Origin: a virus
Virus record (IMG/VR): IMGVR_UViG_3300042326_001256
Coordinates: 1 to 27,467 of that record
Length of the DNA stretch: 27,467 nt
Strand: one strand, 5' to 3'
The translations under genes and the position numbers were made by a program. This document shows, piece after piece, positions 16,807 through 24,781 of the stretch. Position 1 is the stretch's first letter. Each line of letters starts with the position of its first letter. Below the pieces are notes generated by a model. It saw only the letters and a list, made by a program, of their open reading frames with translations. It was not told the origin of the DNA and did no database searches.

Positions 16807-16895
16807 AGTTTAAAAAGTTGGATAAGGTTGTAAATGGTTGCTACAGTAAAAAATACTGAAATGGATACAAGTGGCAAGTAAAGAAAGAATTTCAT
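16803..16895 (-). CDS. Membrane micropeptide (30 aa)
   Basis: MKFFLYLPLVSISVFFTVAT then IYNLIQLFKL: almost entirely one membrane helix. It overlaps the HNH gene by 4 nt and the next gene's ATG by 4 nt. Its position in the overlapping chain supports reality; function unknown. Confidence 0.55.
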   Translation of the reverse strand: MKFFLYLPLVSISVFFTVATIYNLIQLFKL

Positions 16896-17368
16896 GTGTA
16901 CACGTACTCCTTCCATTCATCAACATTAGATTTTCTCAAAATAATCTCCAATTTACTTTTAGGTTTGTAGTTGGTTCTGTAAGGAAACTTCCCCCATTCT
17001 TCTGGAGTGCGGTTCCCTTTCTCTTCATTGCAATTTCGACATGCTGGAACTAGATTATCAAAAGTGTGAAGCCCTCCGCGAGATAATGGAATTACGTGAT
17101 CAATCGTTAGATTGCCATAAATTCCACAATAAGCGCATTGATAATTGCCAAATTTCTTAACAAGATTTTTAGTTGGCCTTACACTTAAGAGGTTTTCAAA
17201 AGGAATCCTCACATAATTTTTTAGGCAAATGACTCGTTTAGAAATAAACTTGACCCGTTCTTTCAATAAAAGAACAATGGCTCTTCGCCATTTTAAAATG
17301 GAAATCGGGTTGTAATCAGCGTTTAGAAGTAACACGTCTCGGTAAGGCTCTAGGTCCTTGTAACTCAT
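16892..17368 (-). CDS. HNH endonuclease (158 aa)
   Basis: CAYCG at about residue 85, then TIDHVIPLSRGG (the HNH core), NLVPACRNCNEEKGNR, and a PEEWG segment: all parts of the HNH family with two zinc-binding Cys pairs. The N-terminal 75 residues (LLLNADYNPISILKWRRAIV) match the usual pre-domain of phage and cyanobacterial HNH proteins. I chose ATG 17368, with AAGGAG upstream; a TTG at 17377 is in frame. HNH enzymes cut DNA; a free-standing phage copy may be a homing-type enzyme or a resolving or packaging nuclease. Not determined here. Confidence 0.88.
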   Translation of the reverse strand: MSYKDLEPYRDVLLLNADYNPISILKWRRAIVLLLKERVKFISKRVICLKNYVRIPFENLLSVRPTKNLVKKFGNYQCAYCGIYGNLTIDHVIPLSRGGLHTFDNLVPACRNCNEEKGNRTPEEWGKFPYRTNYKPKSKLEIILRKSNVDEWKEYVYT

Positions 17369-17373
17369 AAAAA

Positions 17374-18048
17374 TCAAAACTCCTTAATTACACCAGATTC
17401 TACATTATAAAGTGACAGTGGAGCCAGACAATCACCCCCACACCCAGAATCAAGAACAATAGATTGGTCTCCAATAAAAACCGCATGATAATGACCGGCT
17501 ACCCGGACATATTCCTGGTTTTCATTCTGTGCCTCCCACCACTTGACTCGGATATTGTCCCGGTCGATTTTTCCGTAAATAAATACGTCCCTGTACCTAC
17601 GATTAAGGTCACTCCTATAAACAAAATTTGATTCGGTCCTTAGGCTATTCGGGAAGTATGCGTGGGCAATCCGGTATTCCTTGCCTCTATCATCCTTCAT
17701 AATCGCCCCATAAGGAAAAGATGAAAGAAGATCAAACAGGGCCTTTTTATCGATGTTGTTCTCCTCAAATTCCTTGATTGTGACATCAAGACCGTTATTT
17801 TGAGAAACATTGTTTCCTTTTAGGTAACGAACCAGCTTGTCCTGGTGATTAGAGTGCATACAAACGTGACCGTTTTTTACAGACTTTTCCACCAGATTCA
17901 GAACCCCAATGGAGTCGCTGTATTCGATCTTGCTGTCAAAAATGTCTCCAAGAAAGATGATCTGAAGATTTTGAGACTCGGCATAATCGATTGCCCTTTG
18001 CAGTCTTTGGGACTGAGAGTGAATATCTGAAATGAAACAGAACGACAT
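17374..18048 (-). CDS. Pnkp-type metallophosphoesterase (224 aa)
   Basis: Motifs: SDIHS (Asp8, His10), FLGDIFDS (Asp35), SNHQDKLVRYLKG (Asn67, His68), HAYFP, GHYHAV near residue 185 and LDSGCGGDCLAPLSL near the end. The stretch IGVLNLVEKSVKNGHVCMHS and the following NNGLDVTIKEFEE resemble the phosphatase module of bacterial Pnkp (GVLRLV..G..CVPGNHD.KL.R.L.G.NV). Pnkp phosphatase removes 2',3'-cyclic or 3' phosphates from RNA ends. A kinase and an RNA ligase are close by in the same orientation. SNHQD replaces the common GNHE/D, so the first Gly is lost. Its translation may be controlled by the upstream hairpin. Confidence 0.85.
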   Translation of the reverse strand: MSFCFISDIHSQSQRLQRAIDYAESQNLQIIFLGDIFDSKIEYSDSIGVLNLVEKSVKNGHVCMHSNHQDKLVRYLKGNNVSQNNGLDVTIKEFEENNIDKKALFDLLSSFPYGAIMKDDRGKEYRIAHAYFPNSLRTESNFVYRSDLNRRYRDVFIYGKIDRDNIRVKWWEAQNENQEYVRVAGHYHAVFIGDQSIVLDSGCGGDCLAPLSLYNVESGVIKEF

Positions 18049-18049
18049 T

Positions 18050-18087
18050 AAAAAACCTCGGTTAGTGTTTTAATTCTAGCCGAGGTT
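18050..18087 (-). terminator. Strong hairpin with U-tract overlapping the ribosome site of the phosphatase
   Basis: AACCTCGG (18087-18080) pairs perfectly with CCGAGGTT (18061-18054), followed by TTTTTT and, 2 nt later, the ATG at 18048. The 3' arm holds GAGG, the only ribosome site for that gene, so in read-through RNA it would be paired. The loop holds TAGAAT (18078-18073), a possible -10; RNA started there would lack the 5' arm and leave GAGG free. Termination or ribosome-site masking are both possible. Confidence 0.7.
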
Positions 18088-18108
18088 ATGGTTTTATTGG
18101 GTTATGAT

Positions 18109-18130
18109 GTGACAGTTAAGGGATTGTCAC
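18109..18130 (-). repeat. Recurrent stop-codon hairpin
   Basis: GTGACA/TGTCAC, 6-bp perfect stem, overlapping the TGA of the gene at 18127-18474. Same class as the hairpins at 10626-10651 and 20441-20468. It lies about 20 nt before the terminator-like hairpin at 18050-18087. Confidence 0.55.
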
Positions 18131-18474
18131 CAGTCGTTTTCGGATTCCAGTTCGTCAATTGCGGCGAAAATCTGGTCGCGGAACTCGTTGAGTTTTGCGT
18201 CAACTGCAGGCATCTTAACCGCCCACATATTGATCCACCCGATCATCTCATTAACCCCCTCACGGGCGCGGTCAGCGGCGGTGGGCTCGACTTCTTCCTC
18301 TTCAGGAACATCGGCCTCAAGATCATCAACAAAATAAAAATGAGTGAATCCCGAAAAAACTCGGACATCGCCAAGAGTGGTTTGTGACCATCGACCACTA
18401 GAATCACGGGCCATCACGGTCACATTTGGGTCCTTAGAATCAAAATTGTAAGACCGATCATAAGTTTGTTGCAT
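18127..18474 (-). CDS. Hypothetical acidic protein (115 aa)
   Basis: Starts MQQTYDRSYNFDSKDPNVTV. The middle is very acidic (DDLEADVPEEEEVEPTAADR) and the C-terminus helical (LNEFRDQIFAAIDELESEND). The 3' half is more GC-rich than its neighbours, so it may have a different history. It sits between the kinase and the phosphatase, so a role in the RNA-end set is conceivable, but no motif supports it. Confidence 0.65.
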   Translation of the reverse strand: MQQTYDRSYNFDSKDPNVTVMARDSSGRWSQTTLGDVRVFSGFTHFYFVDDLEADVPEEEEVEPTAADRAREGVNEMIGWINMWAVKMPAVDAKLNEFRDQIFAAIDELESENDW

Positions 18475-18514
18475 TTTTAAAATCCTCTTTGTTTGTTGGA
18501 CAGGTTAATAATAG

Positions 18515-18540
18515 CACGCCTTAAACAGAAATGGCCTGCG
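18515..18540 (-). promoter_or_regulatory. Possible hairpin at the end of the kinase gene
   Basis: GCAGGCC and GGCGTGC on the minus strand (18540-18515) pair with one mismatch around the TAA of 18521-19045 and are followed by TATTATT, a possible -10 for the gene at 18127-18474. It is weaker than the elements at other boundaries. Confidence 0.35.
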
Positions 18541-19045
18541 GTTGTGACAGTTTTTCGGCTGGCACAAGAGAAAATTCTTCGCCGCTATAGACGGTCAAGA
18601 ATCCCTCATCAATAGTGGGCCGAATATAAGAACCATGCATAGATTCTAAAACAAAATCTGGAATAGTCTTGGTTCGATCTTTATTATGATTTCTTTGGAA
18701 CATTTCTTCTTTAGAAATTTCAAAATAAACAGCAATCTTCTCATAATGATCCGGAATCATTTTGAGTTTCCGCTTTCGTACCTTTGGAGTCAGATGCGTC
18801 TGATCAACAATAATATTTTGTCCTTGGTGAACAAAATGCCGCAATTGACCTAGCATCAATTCAATTGCAGTTTCGATATAATCATCGAATACCTCATTAT
18901 ATGTAGAGCCAACATTTTTGGCATAATTTTCGATGATATTGTCCGATGAAATGACCATATAACCGTCACTGTTTTGTGCCACCCAGGAAGATTTGCCTGA
19001 AGTCGGCACTCCACAGAGAAGAATAGCCCGGTTTCGGATTTTCAA
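18521..19045 (-). CDS. P-loop polynucleotide-kinase-like protein, TTG start (174 aa)
   Basis: Walker A GVPTSGKSS at residues 12-20. SSDNIIENYAKN follows as the Asp-bearing acceptor region, and VDQTHLTPKVRKRKL as the second conserved block (Walker B-like, then lid Arg/Lys). The layout matches phage 5'-polynucleotide kinases and AAA_33-type kinases. No phosphatase domain is fused, unlike T4 Pnkp. TTG 19045 overlaps the ligase stop (TTGA), and GGAG lies 8 nt before it. Likely phosphorylates 5' ends of RNA or DNA, feeding the adjacent ligase. Confidence 0.82.
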   Translation of the reverse strand: MKIRNRAILLCGVPTSGKSSWVAQNSDGYMVISSDNIIENYAKNVGSTYNEVFDDYIETAIELMLGQLRHFVHQGQNIIVDQTHLTPKVRKRKLKMIPDHYEKIAVYFEISKEEMFQRNHNKDRTKTIPDFVLESMHGSYIRPTIDEGFLTVYSGEEFSLVPAEKLSQPQAISV

Positions 19046-20367
19046 TTTTCTGACTCCAAATCTACAAAGTTTTCGTTGTCCAATTCCTTAGTTTCCCATT
19101 CTAGGAATTTGAAGGATTTTAGTTTATAAATTTCAGAATCAAAAATATCCTTTCTTAGACAGACACCTTCATCTGGTACTTTCTTAGATTTGCACAGTTC
19201 ACAGTCTTTTTCAAGATAATCTCCAATAAGACGATCAAGGAAGTTTTGATGCCAATGATCATTCACGGAAAGTTCGGGATATAAGTCCTTTGCTTTTCCA
19301 TAATAAATCTCTGGAACCATATTCAGACCATATTTTTCGCAATAGTCCTTGACTTGCCTATGAGAAAATTCATAAACCTGCCCAGAATGATTGGTTGTTG
19401 TAATTCGGTAGACATAAGTTGCAAACTGCCCGGCGGGGCAGCCATAATCATATCCGGTTTGAATGTACGCCCCGGTTTTCGTGTACCCCACTGCTTCACC
19501 ATAAAGAGTAATGGAATCTTGAATGGCATATTCGACTGATTTGGCGATTTCTTCCCAGAGATCATAAGAATAGAAATGATCTTTATTCCCGATTTCTAGA
19601 AAACCGTTCTTTAGAACTCTACGAGAGGCCCAAAGAAGATCGTAATGAGTATCTTGAATTTTGATACCAAAACGCTTCAGGATTTTTTCAAATCGAGTCA
19701 GTTTTTTATTACAAAGAAGGCGACTTGCCACCCAGGAAGTTCCATGAAGTTTTCGTGTAATAGAAATATAATCATTTGGAGAGATATTATGAATAGATTT
19801 CTTCAGTTGAAGAGTATCAGGATGGAAGCGGAATTGTCCGTCCACCACTTTTGGCTCACGAACAACTTTCTTTTGATTCTTTTTCTCTTTATTCTGATTT
19901 TTAAGGACTAGAGGACTTACATATTTCTCACAGATCAGAATATCATCATATGAATCAAACTCCTTTCCGATCCATTCTTCTTTAAGAGAAATGGATTTTC
20001 CAGTCTTTTCTTCTAGCCAATCAAGAAATTTTTGGGCCGGAAGAGCATAACCTTGTGATGGGATTCCACGGAGTTTAACTGCCCTCACACGACCTTTCGT
20101 ATTAAAGAATCCAGCCACTTCTTTGTCGTTATTAAGTGTCTTATCGGAAAACGAATTACTCCAAGAAAGAAATTCTTTATTTATGGCGCACTCTAATGGG
20201 AAATAAACATAAACATCCCCTTCCTTGGCATCAAGAGAAACAATCACACTATTTCCTTGAATTGTGGCGATTTGCAATCTATCTGCGTTTGGGTGTGGTC
20301 GCAGATTATTTAATACAACGATCTCCGCAAGATAATTAGGGTTGGCTTTTTCAGAAATTTTGAACAT
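19042..20367 (-). CDS. RNA ligase with N-terminal OB domain (441 aa)
   Basis: Motif I is KLHGTSW (Lys206, the adenylated lysine). Motif III-like YGEAVG follows at 289-294, and motif V is KLKSFKFLEWETK after EGVCLR. Residues 1-140 contain RPHPNADRLQIATIQGNSVI, which resembles the tRNA-binding OB fold and the N-terminal domain of DRB0094/Rnl5-type RNA ligases. It joins RNA 3'-OH to 5'-phosphate ends. Coupled to the kinase by a TTGA overlap, so they form a repair pair. Two conserved Cys pairs late in the protein (CELCKSK) might bind zinc. Assignment to this ligase class is from motifs, not a search. Confidence 0.85.
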   Translation of the reverse strand: MFKISEKANPNYLAEIVVLNNLRPHPNADRLQIATIQGNSVIVSLDAKEGDVYVYFPLECAINKEFLSWSNSFSDKTLNNDKEVAGFFNTKGRVRAVKLRGIPSQGYALPAQKFLDWLEEKTGKSISLKEEWIGKEFDSYDDILICEKYVSPLVLKNQNKEKKNQKKVVREPKVVDGQFRFHPDTLQLKKSIHNISPNDYISITRKLHGTSWVASRLLCNKKLTRFEKILKRFGIKIQDTHYDLLWASRRVLKNGFLEIGNKDHFYSYDLWEEIAKSVEYAIQDSITLYGEAVGYTKTGAYIQTGYDYGCPAGQFATYVYRITTTNHSGQVYEFSHRQVKDYCEKYGLNMVPEIYYGKAKDLYPELSVNDHWHQNFLDRLIGDYLEKDCELCKSKKVPDEGVCLRKDIFDSEIYKLKSFKFLEWETKELDNENFVDLESEN

Positions 20368-20440: not shown

Positions 20441-20468
20441 AAGTAGACAGTTTAAAAAGTGTCTACTT
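20441..20468 (-). repeat. Perfect 9-bp stop-codon hairpin
   Basis: On the minus strand AAGTAGACA (20468-20460) pairs with TGTCTACTT (20449-20441) around a 10-nt loop. The TAG stop of the helicase gene is inside the 5' arm. No U-tract follows, so it may protect or process the mRNA end rather than terminate. The region 20368-20440 to the ligase start holds TATTCT, a weak -10, and nothing else I can support. Confidence 0.65.
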
Positions 20469-21695
20469 TACAATTTCCTGAGAAACTACTTCGCCTGCAA
20501 CAAATGACCGATAAATTAAATTTTCAATATCGGAAGCAATTGATTTCGATTTGGAATCACCGTGAGGAAGTACTACCATACCATAAGGCTTCTTGTAATT
20601 TTTATAATCCCCGACCCGCAATTCACCAGAAGCAATGTGATCTGCATCTTCTTTATGAAGACGGATCACACGTCCAATGGTTTGCAACATGGCAATTGCA
20701 TCCATATTTCTCATAAAGATCACGGCATCCAACGAATTGACATTGATCCCTTCAGAAAGAATCGAGTAGTTAAGAAGAACAAACTTCTTAGAATCGTCAT
20801 TTCCCCACTCATCCAAAGTTCTAAAAAACACATCTCGCTTTACCTCTTTACCATCAATATATGCCCCGTGAGCCGCAGTTATATGCATAATACTATAATC
20901 TCTGTCCTTCATCTGAGAGACAAAATCGGTCTCAGTAAGAAGAGAAATAATTGATTTTGTTGATTTCGCAGAAATAAGAACCTTCTTGGGAGTATCCTCG
21001 TCCAAGGTTTTTAGAATCAGATTATTATTCATTTCATCCATACTTTCTTCAATATTCACTTCCTTCTTAACCACCAATGGAGGCAAAACATAACCACCAT
21101 ATACCATCTCGGTCATAGGAATCTTACAAATATCATGACCATAAACCTCGGCAATATTCATTCCGGGTTTTTTTGTTGGAATTGCAGAGTTCTTAGGAGT
21201 GGCAGTAAAAAAGTACTTCTTGTCTGCTTCCCTTACTGCATCTTCAATGTGTGGAAAGAAGGACTTCTTAGTAGAATTGTGACATTCATCAAAATTGTAG
21301 GTGTTCACCTTAATATTTGACTCGGTGATTTTCTTCAGGGAATTATAAGAAGTAAAAATAAGTTTATGATCATCTTTATGGATATTATGCCACTCTTGAA
21401 TATCTTTTATATTGGTAGTGCGGTAGTTTCTTAGCCGACTACCAGAATGCACATGCATATATTTCGCATTATTAACGTGCTTTTCGTAATCAGCAGAAAG
21501 TTGAACCGCGAGGAGAATCCTTGGGGCAACAACGCAAACAGTCTGGGGAATATCAGATTTAAATTGCTCTATGGTGTTTTTGATAAAAACAATACTTTTA
21601 CCTGCACCAGTCGGAAGAATAATTTTACCAAGATCGTTTTCTCCCATAGAAGAAAGAGCCGTCGCCTGATGAGGACGAAGAATAATAGAGGTCAT
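20463..21695 (-). CDS. SF2 DEAD/DEAH-like helicase, UvsW-like (410 aa)
   Basis: Helicase motifs in order: RPHQATAL (Q-like), LPTGAGKS (Walker A, residues 27-34), TSYNSLKK (Ib region), FDECHN (DECH Walker B), FFTATP (motif III), LLNYSILSEGINV (motif V) and MLQTIGRVIR (motif VI). This is the two-RecA-domain order of UvsW and related phage helicases, which unwind branched DNA and RNA-DNA hybrids. Length is close to UvsW without its extra N-terminal domain. It is alone between two recurrent hairpins, likely its own transcript. Confidence 0.85.
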   Translation of the reverse strand: MTSIILRPHQATALSSMGENDLGKIILPTGAGKSIVFIKNTIEQFKSDIPQTVCVVAPRILLAVQLSADYEKHVNNAKYMHVHSGSRLRNYRTTNIKDIQEWHNIHKDDHKLIFTSYNSLKKITESNIKVNTYNFDECHNSTKKSFFPHIEDAVREADKKYFFTATPKNSAIPTKKPGMNIAEVYGHDICKIPMTEMVYGGYVLPPLVVKKEVNIEESMDEMNNNLILKTLDEDTPKKVLISAKSTKSIISLLTETDFVSQMKDRDYSIMHITAAHGAYIDGKEVKRDVFFRTLDEWGNDDSKKFVLLNYSILSEGINVNSLDAVIFMRNMDAIAMLQTIGRVIRLHKEDADHIASGELRVGDYKNYKKPYGMVVLPHGDSKSKSIASDIENLIYRSFVAGEVVSQEIVK

Positions 21696-21739: not shown

Positions 21740-21949
21740 TTATGTTAAGTTAGTGGACGATTTATAAAGTGTCCACCTGGTTAATGCCTGGAGTTGTTCA
21801 TTTGGTAAACGTTTAGGCCAGTATATAATTCTTCTTAACCAATTTTGTTTAATTGGGCTTCCGTCCGTCCTTGGAACAAAATTTAAAGAAGTAGAATTTG
21901 CATAATACGAATTATTTTGATTTACTGAAAGTTGAAATGCAGTCTTTTT
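21740..21949 (-). pseudogene. C-terminal remnant of a LamG-like fibre protein
   Basis: A frame with no start codon reads from a TGA at about 21950 to TAA 21740-21742. It includes SVNQNNSYYANSTSLNFVPR, then LRRIIYWPKRLPNEQLQALT and RWTLYKSS. YWPKRLPNEQLQALT resembles the C-terminal ending common in phage tail proteins with LamG-like domains. The first part overlaps the end of the glycosyltransferase gene in another frame, next to AAAAAAG. It is most likely left over after a recombination that replaced the fibre's front part. A frameshifted extension of that gene is the alternative. Confidence 0.5.
21753..21776 (-). repeat. Recurrent hairpin upstream of the helicase gene
   Basis: GTGGAC (21776-21771) pairs perfectly with GTCCAC (21758-21753), loop ACTTTATAAATC. 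Same class as the stop-codon hairpins. It lies inside the fibre remnant, near its stop. Between it and the helicase ATG, CTATTATTC is a possible -10 element. Confidence 0.6.
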
Positions 21950-23814
21950 TCAAATTTTGCTCCAACTTTTTTTGCGTTTTCTTCGACTAAAGATTTATGT
22001 TTCACATCTAAAACATTCCAATAATTATCGCATAATAATTCTAAAAGTCCTCTACTTTCATCTCCTTTTCCCCACCACCAAGAAGAAATTGCCTTTTGAA
22101 AAATAAGCAAATGTTTCCCGGAATATTCTGGAATATTAATGTTTATGCATTCATCGTTATTTTCATAGCAATTTAGACCTAGTGTTGCATAAATGTAAGA
22201 ATGTTGCCATTCTTGTTTTCTTTCATATATCAACGAAAGAAAATAATATGCTTCGGGTCTTTTGGGTAGCAACACAAGAGCATTTTCTAGTAATACTTTT
22301 TCACTAGAATCTCTTGATTTTTGTGCCCCATAGCAGAATGACCCACGAATTAATGCGGAGTATGCCAAAAGATTATCTTCACTTCTTTCTGCTGCTCTCA
22401 AGTAATAGATATGTGCTGGTGCAGTATGACCCTGACTTTCATACCACTTTGCGAGATTATAATTTTTTTCCGCATTTTCAGTATCTAATGAATATTCTAT
22501 TAATTCATTAGATATAGATTTTACTTTATACATCCAACAATCTTCAGAAAATTCTAATTCATCAATTTTTAGTGTTTCATTAACCGCTTGCTTTACTCCA
22601 GGGAAAAAGTCAGTCCCATTAAGATAGTAATCGTGTCCGGCAATAATTCCACCTGGTTTTACCTTAGGCAACCAAGAAATAATATCTTTTTTCACGTCTT
22701 CATATTCGTGAGAAGCATCAATAAAAACAAAATCTAAAGACTTATCTTCAAAAGTTTTTACCGCTTCAAGTGAAGTCATTCTTAAAGGAATATGATAGCC
22801 TTTTAAAGGCATCATATTTTGGTTAAATGTGTCATATAAAGATTTTAAATCGTCTATATCTTGATGCTCTACACTTCCTTCCCAAGTATCTACACAATAG
22901 AACTCAATGTTTTTATTGGAATTTGCAATTTCAACTGCCATAAATGCGGAAGATTTTCCTTTCCAAGAACCAATTTCAACAAACTTGGAACCTGATGGGA
23001 ATTTTTCAATCATTTTCCTATACAGATTTGGATATGAAAACCAATTTTCTCCAAATTGAGGTTCTTGATAAATGTGATTAAGTTGTGTATTCATTATTTG
23101 ATTAATAGTTAAATTTTTACCGTTATTTTCCCACCAATTTAAAACATTACGATAAGATTTATGATGACAATCATCTACCAGTTCTGGATTTCTGTAAGTT
23201 GATTTTGCATTATAAAAATCCTCAACAAATAAAGGAAAACAATATATGTTTGGATTAGTATGAAAAAATAATACGTCCTCAACTACAGGAATAAAACTAG
23301 TGTTTAGATTAAAATCAGTATCAAAATAATATAAGTCTAAGAGATATTTTGCATAGTTTCTTTTTATTAAATACCCAGCAACACACCAGTCTTTATCTCT
23401 TCTTTCTTCAAAAGAATACGCTTTAACATTATATTCTCTTACAATAGTTAATTGAATACCATTCCAATCTTTAGGAAGATTTTGATAGAATTGCTTCCAG
23501 GTAAAGTTCCAGTGTTCAACAGTTTCTAAAGACAAATCGTCTTCAACAATCAAAAAATATTCATCATCATAAGTCTCGTATAATTCCCTGAGTAAACATA
23601 AATGAGAAGTAATCGGACCTTTTGAATGTTCCGCCAAAAGATGCACATTTGTTCCGATTAAATTATGATTATAATTTTCAAATCTTTTGAATAAATGAGG
23701 AACATAGTTTGTTATATTATATTTTTGAAACCAATTTTCTAAATTAGTTCTTCTGTCTAGGCTTTCTTCTAAACTAATGTAATGAATAGTTGGAAGTCCT
23801 TCAAGTTTGTTCAT
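21922..23814 (-). CDS. Glycosyltransferase-methyltransferase fusion (630 aa)
   Basis: I chose ATG 23814, preceded by GGAGG with 9-nt spacing; six more residues would reach a start at 23832. The N-terminal 220 residues contain IHYISLEESLDRRTNLENWF and VEDDLSL, the GT25-like LPS/collagen glycosyltransferase pattern. About residues 270-430 are a class I methyltransferase (FVEIGSWKGKSS; FVFIDASHEYEDV; KPGGIIAGHDYY). The last 170 residues look like TPR-type helical repeats (AYYFLSLIYERKQEWQHSYI). It may modify glycans on host or phage surfaces. A three-domain fusion is unusual for a phage. Overlaps the preceding gene by 14 nt. Confidence 0.78.
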   Translation of the reverse strand: MNKLEGLPTIHYISLEESLDRRTNLENWFQKYNITNYVPHLFKRFENYNHNLIGTNVHLLAEHSKGPITSHLCLLRELYETYDDEYFLIVEDDLSLETVEHWNFTWKQFYQNLPKDWNGIQLTIVREYNVKAYSFEERRDKDWCVAGYLIKRNYAKYLLDLYYFDTDFNLNTSFIPVVEDVLFFHTNPNIYCFPLFVEDFYNAKSTYRNPELVDDCHHKSYRNVLNWWENNGKNLTINQIMNTQLNHIYQEPQFGENWFSYPNLYRKMIEKFPSGSKFVEIGSWKGKSSAFMAVEIANSNKNIEFYCVDTWEGSVEHQDIDDLKSLYDTFNQNMMPLKGYHIPLRMTSLEAVKTFEDKSLDFVFIDASHEYEDVKKDIISWLPKVKPGGIIAGHDYYLNGTDFFPGVKQAVNETLKIDELEFSEDCWMYKVKSISNELIEYSLDTENAEKNYNLAKWYESQGHTAPAHIYYLRAAERSEDNLLAYSALIRGSFCYGAQKSRDSSEKVLLENALVLLPKRPEAYYFLSLIYERKQEWQHSYIYATLGLNCYENNDECININIPEYSGKHLLIFQKAISSWWWGKGDESRGLLELLCDNYWNVLDVKHKSLVEENAKKVGAKFEKRLHFNFQ

Positions 23815-24781
23815 GAATAAAATCCTCCACAAATGATTTAGAAACTTTTAAAATATAAGCAGCATTATCTTGAGCACCAAAAGTAATCAAGTAATCATTT
23901 TTATATTCTACAAGACCACAACAAAACTCAATTTTTATATTCATAAACGAAAATAATTTTGATACTTTTTGAAGTTTAAATTCCTTATCCCAAATTACAA
24001 ACCGATGGCGATAAGTCGCGTTTTTTCTTCCCTGTTCTGAATTATAAAGATGTGTCTCGTGAAGAAGTGATAAGTATCCGTTTTTATAAGGAATTACCTG
24101 AGAACCACCTCTTAGGTCAGTTTGTAGAGTAGGATTTGGGTCAGTTTGAAAGACTTCTGTTTCCTTTCCAGTAATATCAAATTTCATTAGTGCAGTGGGA
24201 TTAGACCACTTTAATAAATGAAAAGGTTTATCTAGAATTGGAGTACAGTTTTTCATACAGTATTCTTTATCTGGGGAGGGTCCAGGAATACGATAACGAA
24301 AAACTTCTTTGACCGAATAATCAGAAATCTGAAATTCACTAATTTCCATTCTTCCGGTTCCTTTGTCGTCTAAGTCTCTGCGAACACCAATACCATAGAG
24401 TTTATCATTCCATTCTACTAACCGAACATCTTCAAGGCCCACAAAATCCCACTGTGGTTGATAGGTATCAAAGTCTGAAGTATCTATTTTTGAATAGTGA
24501 ACCGTATCTATATTGTCATCTAGTTCTGCAATGTAATTTGTGGTTCTCAGGTGCATATCATTTTCTGGATGAATGTAGGATAATGGACCCCACATATGCT
24601 CAAACCGATTGAGTTCTGCGTGATATAATGTATAATTTACATTACGAAGATTGACTAATATTCTGTTCTGATAAATGAAGACAGAAGGATTTGTGATTGA
24701 TGGTCCCGAAAGGTCTTCTGGGTTTATAAGTAGAGGTTTAATTGTTCCACCATTCTCCAATGCATATTTAACGAAATTCAT
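23801..24781 (-). CDS. GH130-like beta-propeller carbohydrate enzyme (326 aa)
   Basis: Segments DFVGLEDVRLVEWNDKLYGI, LKWSNPTALMKFD, LRGGSQVIPYKNGYLSLLHE and IEFCCGLVEYKNDYLITFGA match the five-blade pattern of GH130 beta-mannoside phosphorylases (ED..R blade and following Asp/Glu repeats). Also possible: another GH43/GH130 clan member. A TATAAATA sequence lies upstream, so it is probably late-expressed. Its role next to the glycosyltransferase may be surface glycan handling; inference only. Confidence 0.7.
   Translation of the reverse strand: MNFVKYALENGGTIKPLLINPEDLSGPSITNPSVFIYQNRILVNLRNVNYTLYHAELNRFEHMWGPLSYIHPENDMHLRTTNYIAELDDNIDTVHYSKIDTSDFDTYQPQWDFVGLEDVRLVEWNDKLYGIGVRRDLDDKGTGRMEISEFQISDYSVKEVFRYRIPGPSPDKEYCMKNCTPILDKPFHLLKWSNPTALMKFDITGKETEVFQTDPNPTLQTDLRGGSQVIPYKNGYLSLLHETHLYNSEQGRKNATYRHRFVIWDKEFKLQKVSKLFSFMNIKIEFCCGLVEYKNDYLITFGAQDNAAYILKVSKSFVEDFIHEQT

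Follow-up and report, generated by a model that had tools for sequence, protein, structure and literature searches.

The window analyzed here is a 27,467-base virus record from IMG/VR (IMGVR_UViG_3300042326_001256), in which a run of minus-strand genes encodes an RNA ligase, a P-loop kinase, and a metallophosphoesterase (MPE). An earlier note on this DNA had described the three as a split, Pnkp-like RNA-end repair set of leftward genes with one acidic protein between them. That layout is borne out by the open reading frames (ORFs), which fall at exactly the minus-strand coordinates below and contain the ligase motif KLHGTSW and the kinase motif GVPTSGKSS. In order of transcription, with lengths in amino acids (aa), the genes of the region are as follows.

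20463-21695, minus strand: DEAD/ResIII-type helicase, a conserved neighbor upstream of the ligase.
19042-20367, minus strand: RNA ligase, 441 aa, with an N-terminal OB fold (PHA02142) and an Rnl2-like nucleotidyltransferase; phrog_968, Rnl5-type architecture; contains KLHGTSW.
18521-19045, minus strand: P-loop kinase (AAA_33), 174 aa, polynucleotide-kinase-like, of a D-x-x-[IV] clade, its TTG start overlapping the ligase stop; contains GVPTSGKSS.
18127-18474, minus strand: acidic protein, 115 aa, pI 4.15, for which no family was found; relatives in seven viral loci and as gp26 of Synechococcus phage B23.
17374-18048, minus strand: MPE, 224 aa, of PPP-like fold and a phage clade of its own, a predicted RNA 3'-end phosphatase; contains GVLNLV and SNHQDKLVRYLKG.
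16892-17377, minus strand: HNH endonuclease ORF, phrog_16726; the true start is perhaps an ATG 9 bases inside.

On the basis of gene content, gene order, homology, predicted fold, conserved catalytic residues, and recurrent genomic linkage, we consider it probable, with some reserve, that these genes form a phage cassette for healing and sealing RNA ends, in which the kinase and the MPE would be distant relatives of the Pnkp modules and the ligase would come from another family. The MPE step is the least certain part of this role, and the helicase is probably not part of the repair set. The ligase and kinase ORFs overlap by 4 bases (TTGA), which suggests that their translation is coupled; the kinase has to begin at this TTG or at some other non-ATG codon, the next ATG falling behind the P-loop. 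The MPE and HNH ORFs overlap only if TTG is taken as the HNH start, and this overlap may not be real, since the HNH homolog of phage B23 starts at an ATG three codons on.

Judged by its profile matches, the ligase is an OB-fold/Rnl2-like (Rnl5-type) enzyme of a family other than that of the Pnkp ligase. It matches RNA_ligase (PF09414; 7.8e-10, 39.6 bits) and the PHA02142 OB fold (7.4e-8, 33.2 bits), each over a cut-off of 27, and its best PHROG is phrog_968 (2.1e-62); it remains below the cut-off of TIGR02306, the DRB0094 model (39.5 bits versus 151.15). A profile built from six relatives found T4 Rnl2 in the Protein Data Bank (PDB) with its nucleotidyltransferase part (9.6e-5) and the Naegleria RNA ligase with its OB part (0.007). 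Residues K206, E291, E400-G401, K415, and K417 are invariant in all six sequences, and we take them to represent nucleotidyltransferase motifs I, III, IV, and V. Because TIGR04075, the Pnkp model, gives no match to this protein at E values up to 1, the ligase is not the Pnkp ligase module, and in this respect the Pnkp-like set of the earlier note does not hold.

The kinase and the MPE fit that description better. The kinase matches AAA_33 (PF13671; 2.3e-20, 73.8 bits, cut-off 27) and has the P-loop. Its best PHROG match is phrog_6931 (1.8e-21, annotated as of unknown function), phrog_505, a polynucleotide kinase, is third (1e-13), and phrog_8238 is matched as well; against TIGR04075 it scores 29.4 bits, with a cut-off of 750. 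We compared AlphaFold2 models of both proteins with solved structures by VIA-align on Foldseek candidates. The kinase model (pLDDT 89.1, from an alignment of 17 sequences, viral relatives only) is closest to the kinase of Clostridium thermocellum Pnkp (Z 18.2, rmsd 2.4 over 155), followed by tRNA(Sec) kinase (PSTK; Z 15.9) and T4 Pnk (Z 15.2). RNA ligases were found in four of the ten kinase loci L021-L030, several of these loci being partial, in a search that also took in L016 and L017 and used models from our own alignments.

The MPE matches Metallophos (PF00149; 8.3e-8, 33.3 bits, cut-off 21.5), and its residues D8, H10, D35, N67, H68, H129, H186, and D200 are invariant in 25 of 25 aligned sequences (gene numbering; numbers in that alignment and in the model are one lower, the first residue having been left out). 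Its model (pLDDT 95.2, 25 sequences, again viral relatives only) has as its best PDB match the C. thermocellum Pnkp phosphatase 4j6o (Z 24.8, rmsd 2.0 over 205), ahead of ApaH (Z 21.2) and lambda phosphatase (Z 19.5). The kinase and the MPE, modeled apart, therefore both point to two neighboring domains of one enzyme. The resemblance to the Pnkp phosphatase that the earlier note had proposed is thus upheld by the predicted structure, though a bacterial PrpE used as a control likewise has 4j6o as its best solved-structure match (E 2.4e-68; none of 11 rows was named PrpE). Since the nearest structure to PrpE is the same 4j6o, the match supports a Pnkp/PrpE-type fold and not Pnkp over PrpE, and solved structures cannot separate the two.

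Comparison of 17374-18048 with the two profiles, as the earlier note had proposed, gave no clear placement with PrpE or Ap4A hydrolases: TIGR04075 scored 50.0 bits over residues 16-138 and the PrpE model (NF010148) 37.9 bits, and the Pnkp model also led in seven of eight MPE relatives, the exception being L052 (43.3 bits for PrpE versus 42.6), with all values far under the respective cut-offs of 750 and 340. The two motifs that had been read as marks of the Pnkp phosphatase did not survive. SNHQDKLVRYLKG belongs equally to PrpE, its strict form NHxxKLxRxLxG occurring in three of four PrpE rows and one of five Pnkp rows, and GVLNLV is present in five of eight aligned MPE rows, all of the closest group, and is no general signature. 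Among these rows, which come from bacterial genomes and were set beside 33 phage MPE rows for motifs, SNH replaces GNH in three of five Pnkp and none of four PrpE sequences, and the arginine of GDxx(D/S)RGP together with the GH(T/D)P motif is found in all five Pnkp and all four PrpE sequences. In the tree, the Pnkp phosphatases and PrpE group together (97/96) and the phage MPEs fall outside both, so that filing the window protein under either family was rejected. The phage rows form one group with support of 62/88, or 99/98 when the S-TIM5 pair is included; the tree was built without rows L082, L049, L064, L068, L073, and L075 and carries long-branch warnings for L081, L067, NinI, L133, and the S-TIM5 pair. 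By alignment and tree, then, the MPE is a phage clade of its own, with motifs that differ from those of Pnkp and PrpE. In bacterial genomes, 241 stretches fit a pattern for the family, of which two were confirmed as relatives, both weak.

The arrangement of these genes recurs in other viruses. Six other distinct viral contigs carry the whole order helicase-ligase-kinase-acidic protein-MPE-HNH (identity to the window 63-100% for the ligase and 64-100% for the MPE), so the order in the window is more than chance. Phage B23 (Kyanoviridae), the nearest named phage found, has the order helicase-ligase-gp25-acidic protein-MPE-HNH, with the HTH-like protein gp25 at the place of the kinase. The conserved order for which the earlier note had proposed a check in related phages is therefore present in these contigs and only partly so in B23 and in several lineages treated below. 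An alignment query located members of the MPE family in 48 viral loci, and whole records were searched for 40 of them plus B23, which gives 41 records; L034, L040, L041, L069, L070, and L078-L080 were left out as near-copies or short partial matches. A PF09414 ligase is encoded in 23 of the 41, a PF09511 ligase in 19, one or the other in 29, and an AAA_33 protein in 27. For the linkage statistics we used 20 of these records, one per lineage as grouped in this study; a kinase is encoded in 15 of them and an RNA ligase in 16. Seven of the 20 have the MPE within 1 kb of the kinase, where random placement would give 0.7, and 14 have it within 5 kb of an RNA ligase, where random placement would give 3.0; neither count was reached in any of 20,000 simulations. 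Contigs with more distant MPEs combine the parts differently: L052 and L039 (MPEs 45% and 44% identical to that of the window) have the order Rnl1-kinase-MPE, and in L058 (39%) the order is Rnl1-HNH-kinase-MPE, followed at 1.3 kb by an OB-fold ligase.

Fused and exchanged versions of the set also occur. ORF008 of Staphylococcus phage Twort (754 aa, annotated as an RNA ligase) joins AAA_33 (4-141), Metallophos (175-380), and RNA_lig_T4_1 (483-689) in one chain, and phrog_8238 matches kinase, MPE, and ligase parts alike. The MPE of Twort is only weakly related to the window family, scoring 23.8 bits with the phage profile. In Bacillus phage PJN02, gp092 (L147 3986-5011) is an AAA_33 kinase fused to an HD domain, and a single homing endonuclease gene separates it from an Rnl1-type ligase. 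L022 has a kinase 44% identical to that of the window, flanked by an Rnl1-type ligase on one side and a HAD_PNKP phosphatase (1.4e-26) on the other; an OB-fold ligase follows further on. A search of the 41 MPE records and those of L022, L027, and L029 found HAD_PNKP over its cut-off in none of 14 records in which kinase and MPE lie within 0.71 kb of each other and in nine of 13 in which they are further apart (Fisher p 0.00015; 1.5-4.1 kb from the kinase in those nine), a complementarity that is a lead and not proof, because by lineage only it becomes 0/7 versus 4/8 (p 0.077). In one of the 14 close-pair records, G024, HAD_PNKP moreover scores only slightly below the cut-off (27.2 versus 27.6 bits).

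Other kinds of MPE are also seen near these kinases. Window-clade kinases in L023 (8947-9498), L027 (9425-9970), and L029 (10447-10995) have a different MPE beside them (phrog_547, SDLHFGH or SDPHFGH type), and in G012, G020, G021, and G023 the kinase lies between a window-type MPE and a second MPE of another subtype. Because other phosphatase types occupy the place beside the kinase, the window MPE family is not the sole candidate for its partner; the gene arrangements fit a slot beside the kinase that takes interchangeable phosphatases.

A cassette of this kind would act on the ends left when a host ribonuclease cuts RNA to yield a 2',3'-cyclic phosphate or 3'-phosphate and a 5'-OH. The MPE would take off the 3' phosphate and might also open the cyclic phosphate, the kinase would phosphorylate the 5'-OH using ATP, and the OB-fold RNA ligase would adenylylate the 5'-phosphate and then seal it to the 3'-OH. 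By analogy with phage T4, the likeliest substrate would be host tRNA cut by a defense nuclease, and the cassette most likely serves to mend RNA that the host, probably a cyanobacterium, has cut in self-defense.

A number of observations weigh against this repair role, beginning with the identity of the MPE. PrpE is nearly as close to it in sequence as the Pnkp phosphatase, and the phage MPE profile slightly favors PrpE-like bacterial proteins (58.8 and 49.7 bits) over Pnkp domains (41.5 and 40.4 bits). Where Pnkp and PrpE have GDxx(D/S)RGP, the phage MPEs read GD[LI]FDS[RK] or a variant of it, and none of 33 rows has the arginine. GHxH, whose second histidine is a metal ligand in other MPEs, occurs in 28 of the 33 (as GHYH, not GHTP, in the window), and five S-TIM5-type rows have GHWE. 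Nor do all members of the family keep company with repair genes. The complete 139-kb genome of Synechococcus phage S-CBWM1 encodes the MPE and gives no match to PF09414, PF09511, AAA_33, or HAD_PNKP; its annotations between 20,425 and 134,800 (114 kb) list several putative Ser/Thr kinases and neither an RNA ligase nor a polynucleotide kinase, and its MPE adjoins a gene for NMN adenylyltransferase (L003 6269-7717). In the S-TIM5 group, G032, and G039, too, no ligase or kinase of the searched families was detected with the MPE, and the S-TIM5 member, 'PhoS' (L005 4983-5717), of the branch with GHWE in place of GHYH, adjoins nrdB. Some members of the family therefore act without this partner set. 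Together with the PrpE scores and motif counts and the shared 4j6o match given above, these features would suit an MPE that works outside RNA repair in the same variable region, whether as a nucleotide hydrolase, PrpE/ApaH-like and acting on Ap4A or on a defense-signal nucleotide, or as a PPP-type protein phosphatase; that PrpE itself hydrolyzes Ap4A we take from its family name. We regard such a role as rather improbable, in view of the repeated adjacency of the MPE to kinase and ligases across distant contigs, of the Twort fusion of kinase, MPE, and ligase (weak relative though its MPE is), and of the HAD_PNKP phosphatase that occupies the same slot in L022.

The kinase raises a comparable doubt. 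Its tree splits into two clades (100/99). In the clade that includes Pnkp, Twort, PJN02, L046, L053, and L050, an arginine stands at position D+3 in all ten rows, as it does in five of five Pnkp kinases, whereas none of the 16 rows of the window clade (the window plus 15) has it and all 16 have I or V instead, so that the window kinase keeps the P-loop and the Asp only. We take this arginine to be the acceptor-binding residue in T4 Pnk and C. thermocellum Pnkp. Given also that AAA_33 is a broad family and that PSTK is next by fold, the kinase might phosphorylate another group, be it a modified nucleoside, a tRNA-bound aminoacyl group as PSTK does, or a small molecule, and the cassette would then repair or edit a different end. 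This seems unlikely to us: the C. thermocellum Pnkp kinase is the closest fold, kinases of the same clade stand directly behind Rnl1-type ligases in Cr30, RHph_I1_18, L022, L039, and L052 and near one in B23, and in L022 such a kinase precedes the HAD_PNKP phosphatase. The linkage has limits of its own. Phage genomes are modular, with genes grouped by class, so the expected values are probably too low; moreover, not all of the lineages are independent of one another (B23 is related to the window group, and G010 to G013). Kinase and MPE lie 3.6-22 kb apart in several lineages (9-22 kb in several large contigs), and in G022, G026, and G029 an MPE of another subtype lies within about 0.2 kb of the kinase and the window-type MPE kilobases away. 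In B23 the kinase homolog gp130 is frame-broken and 37 kb from the MPE, but a single small gene separates it from gp128, a second RNA ligase, which is of T4 Rnl1 type. As deposited, gp130 (L004 3227-3690; about 71226-71690 of the record) changes frame after about window residue 103-117, through sequencing error or decay. B23 and L038 have no kinase at this place, L016 and L017 carry the ligase without other cassette genes within flanks of about 10 kb per side, and the acidic gene of contig G005 contains a recombination junction. One could then regard these neighbors as unrelated genes that a single group of related phages inherited as a block, shuffled by homing endonucleases and recombination and sharing no pathway. 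Of the alternatives weighed here we find this one very improbable, because the association recurs in lineages whose MPEs are just 39-46% identical and whose ligases are of different families.

Within the reading of the genes as a repair cassette, we also put forward, tentatively and as a possibility that we would not bet on, a more specific proposal. A phage-specific GHxH phosphatase family of PPP-like fold may have replaced the T4-type HAD 3'-phosphatase beside a kinase clade that lost the D+3 arginine, and the healing pair might then have a chemistry unlike that of T4 or bacterial Pnkp, for instance opening and clearing 2',3'-cyclic or 2'-phosphate ends or phosphorylating unusual 5' ends, with an Rnl1-type or OB-fold ligase plugged in. 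If the reading as a repair cassette is true, phage RNA end repair would be a kit of interchangeable parts that draws on several phosphatase folds and at least two ligase families, in split or fused form. It would also hint at RNA-cutting defenses in the hosts, and the phosphatase family and kinase clade would be open to direct assays of specificity and might provide tools for RNA ends.

The remaining genes of the region are less readily placed. Neither the acidic protein nor its B23 homolog has a family match in the profile libraries or, for the former, in a PADLOC scan. Positions 7685-11149 of L012, a 249,820-base contig, match the window with identities of 100% for the ligase, 98% for the kinase, 74% for the acidic protein, 64% for the MPE, and 73% for HNH; here the acidic gene, which equals that of the window in its N-terminal part, contains a recombination junction. 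The HNH gene neighbors the MPE in all six full-order contigs and in B23. L038 and L058, like B23 and the window group, have it next to the MPE or the kinase, but other contigs have it elsewhere, so that it is no more than a possible fixed part of the cassette. A macro-domain gene (L056 5436-5936), or one that is macro-like by eye (L050 5438-5935; L047 4802-5308), adjoins the MPE in some loci and recalls the KptA/ADP-ribose branch of RNA repair. Macro domains exceed the cut-off in four of the 41 records and lie near the MPE in G022 and, under the cut-off, in G030, and such neighbors are suggestive only.

In the window as a whole, ARAGORN found no tRNA genes, and scans for promoter-like sites (49 versus 37.3 expected, sd 6.2) and terminator-like sites (6 versus 5.6 expected) were uninformative. 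The PADLOC scan returned general HNH and helicase matches and single weak matches for the MPE (0.009) and the kinase (0.004). Upstream of the helicase, positions 21922-23832 encode a 636-aa protein in which a Methyltransf_24 domain is joined to a glucosyltransferase-like part; weak TPR repeats may also be present.

The general idea of such a system is already known. In the consulted passages of one paper, the RNA ligases of jumbo phages are described as accompanying polynucleotide kinases and phosphatases, the latter usually HAD and in a few phages calcineurin-like or HD-like, so that calcineurin-like phosphatases in jumbo-phage RNA repair have already been proposed in print; HNH-Rnl2 fusions and macro domains are named there as well, no cassette of the window's make-up is named, and B23 and Twort are absent from the main text (Viruses 2021;13:63, PMC7824862). 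Nor is a split RNA-repair set as such new, because in the bacterial Pnkp1-Rnl-Hen1 complex the ligase is a separate protein, as in the window; there, unlike in the window, the kinase and phosphatase form one protein, and the phosphatases of Pnkp1 and Pnkp belong to different superfamilies (PMC4411300). Searching titles and the openings of abstracts, with most subscription journals outside coverage, we found no literature on the cassette described here. To these sets the window adds an unfused kinase, MPE, and OB-fold ligase set of mixed origin in viruses related to a cyanophage.

Compared part by part with known enzymes, the ligase shares its N-terminal OB fold and Rnl2-like nucleotidyltransferase with the DRB0094/Rnl5-type ligases (TIGR02306, NgrRnl) and phrog_968, and differs in being about 100 residues longer than NgrRnl (340 aa) and in its low TIGR02306 score. 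PrpE, the bis(5'-nucleosyl)-tetraphosphatase of NF010148, has NHxxKLxRxLxG in common with the phage MPEs but groups with the Pnkp phosphatase, and the window protein scores far below the NF010148 cut-off. T4 Pnkp with Rnl1, as well as L022, resembles the window in pairing a kinase and a 3'-phosphatase with an RNA ligase for end repair, and L022 shares the window kinase clade. The phosphatase of L022 is, however, HAD_PNKP in place of an MPE, as we take that of T4 to be, and an Rnl1-type ligase adjoins its kinase. Twort ORF008 (phrog_8238) is, like the window set, a phage-encoded AAA_33 kinase, MPE, and RNA ligase that would be expected to heal and seal RNA, but it is fused, with a ligase of T4 Rnl1 type, a kinase of the clade with the canonical arginine, and an MPE of GDxFDRG type. 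The window set can also be compared with the bacterial Pnkp of C. thermocellum (TIGR04075), which provides, in its kinase and phosphatase domains, the closest solved structures found for the two window proteins and whose three activities would be expected here as well. Overall, the window appears to keep the Pnkp phosphatase fold in its MPE, and the Pnkp kinase fold beside it, while distributing over three ORFs what Pnkp holds in one chain, with a ligase of another family, scores far under the Pnkp cut-off or no match, GHYH and a GD[IL]FDS[RK] motif in place of GH(T/D)P and GDxx(D/S)RGP, and an I or V at the kinase position where Pnkp has R.

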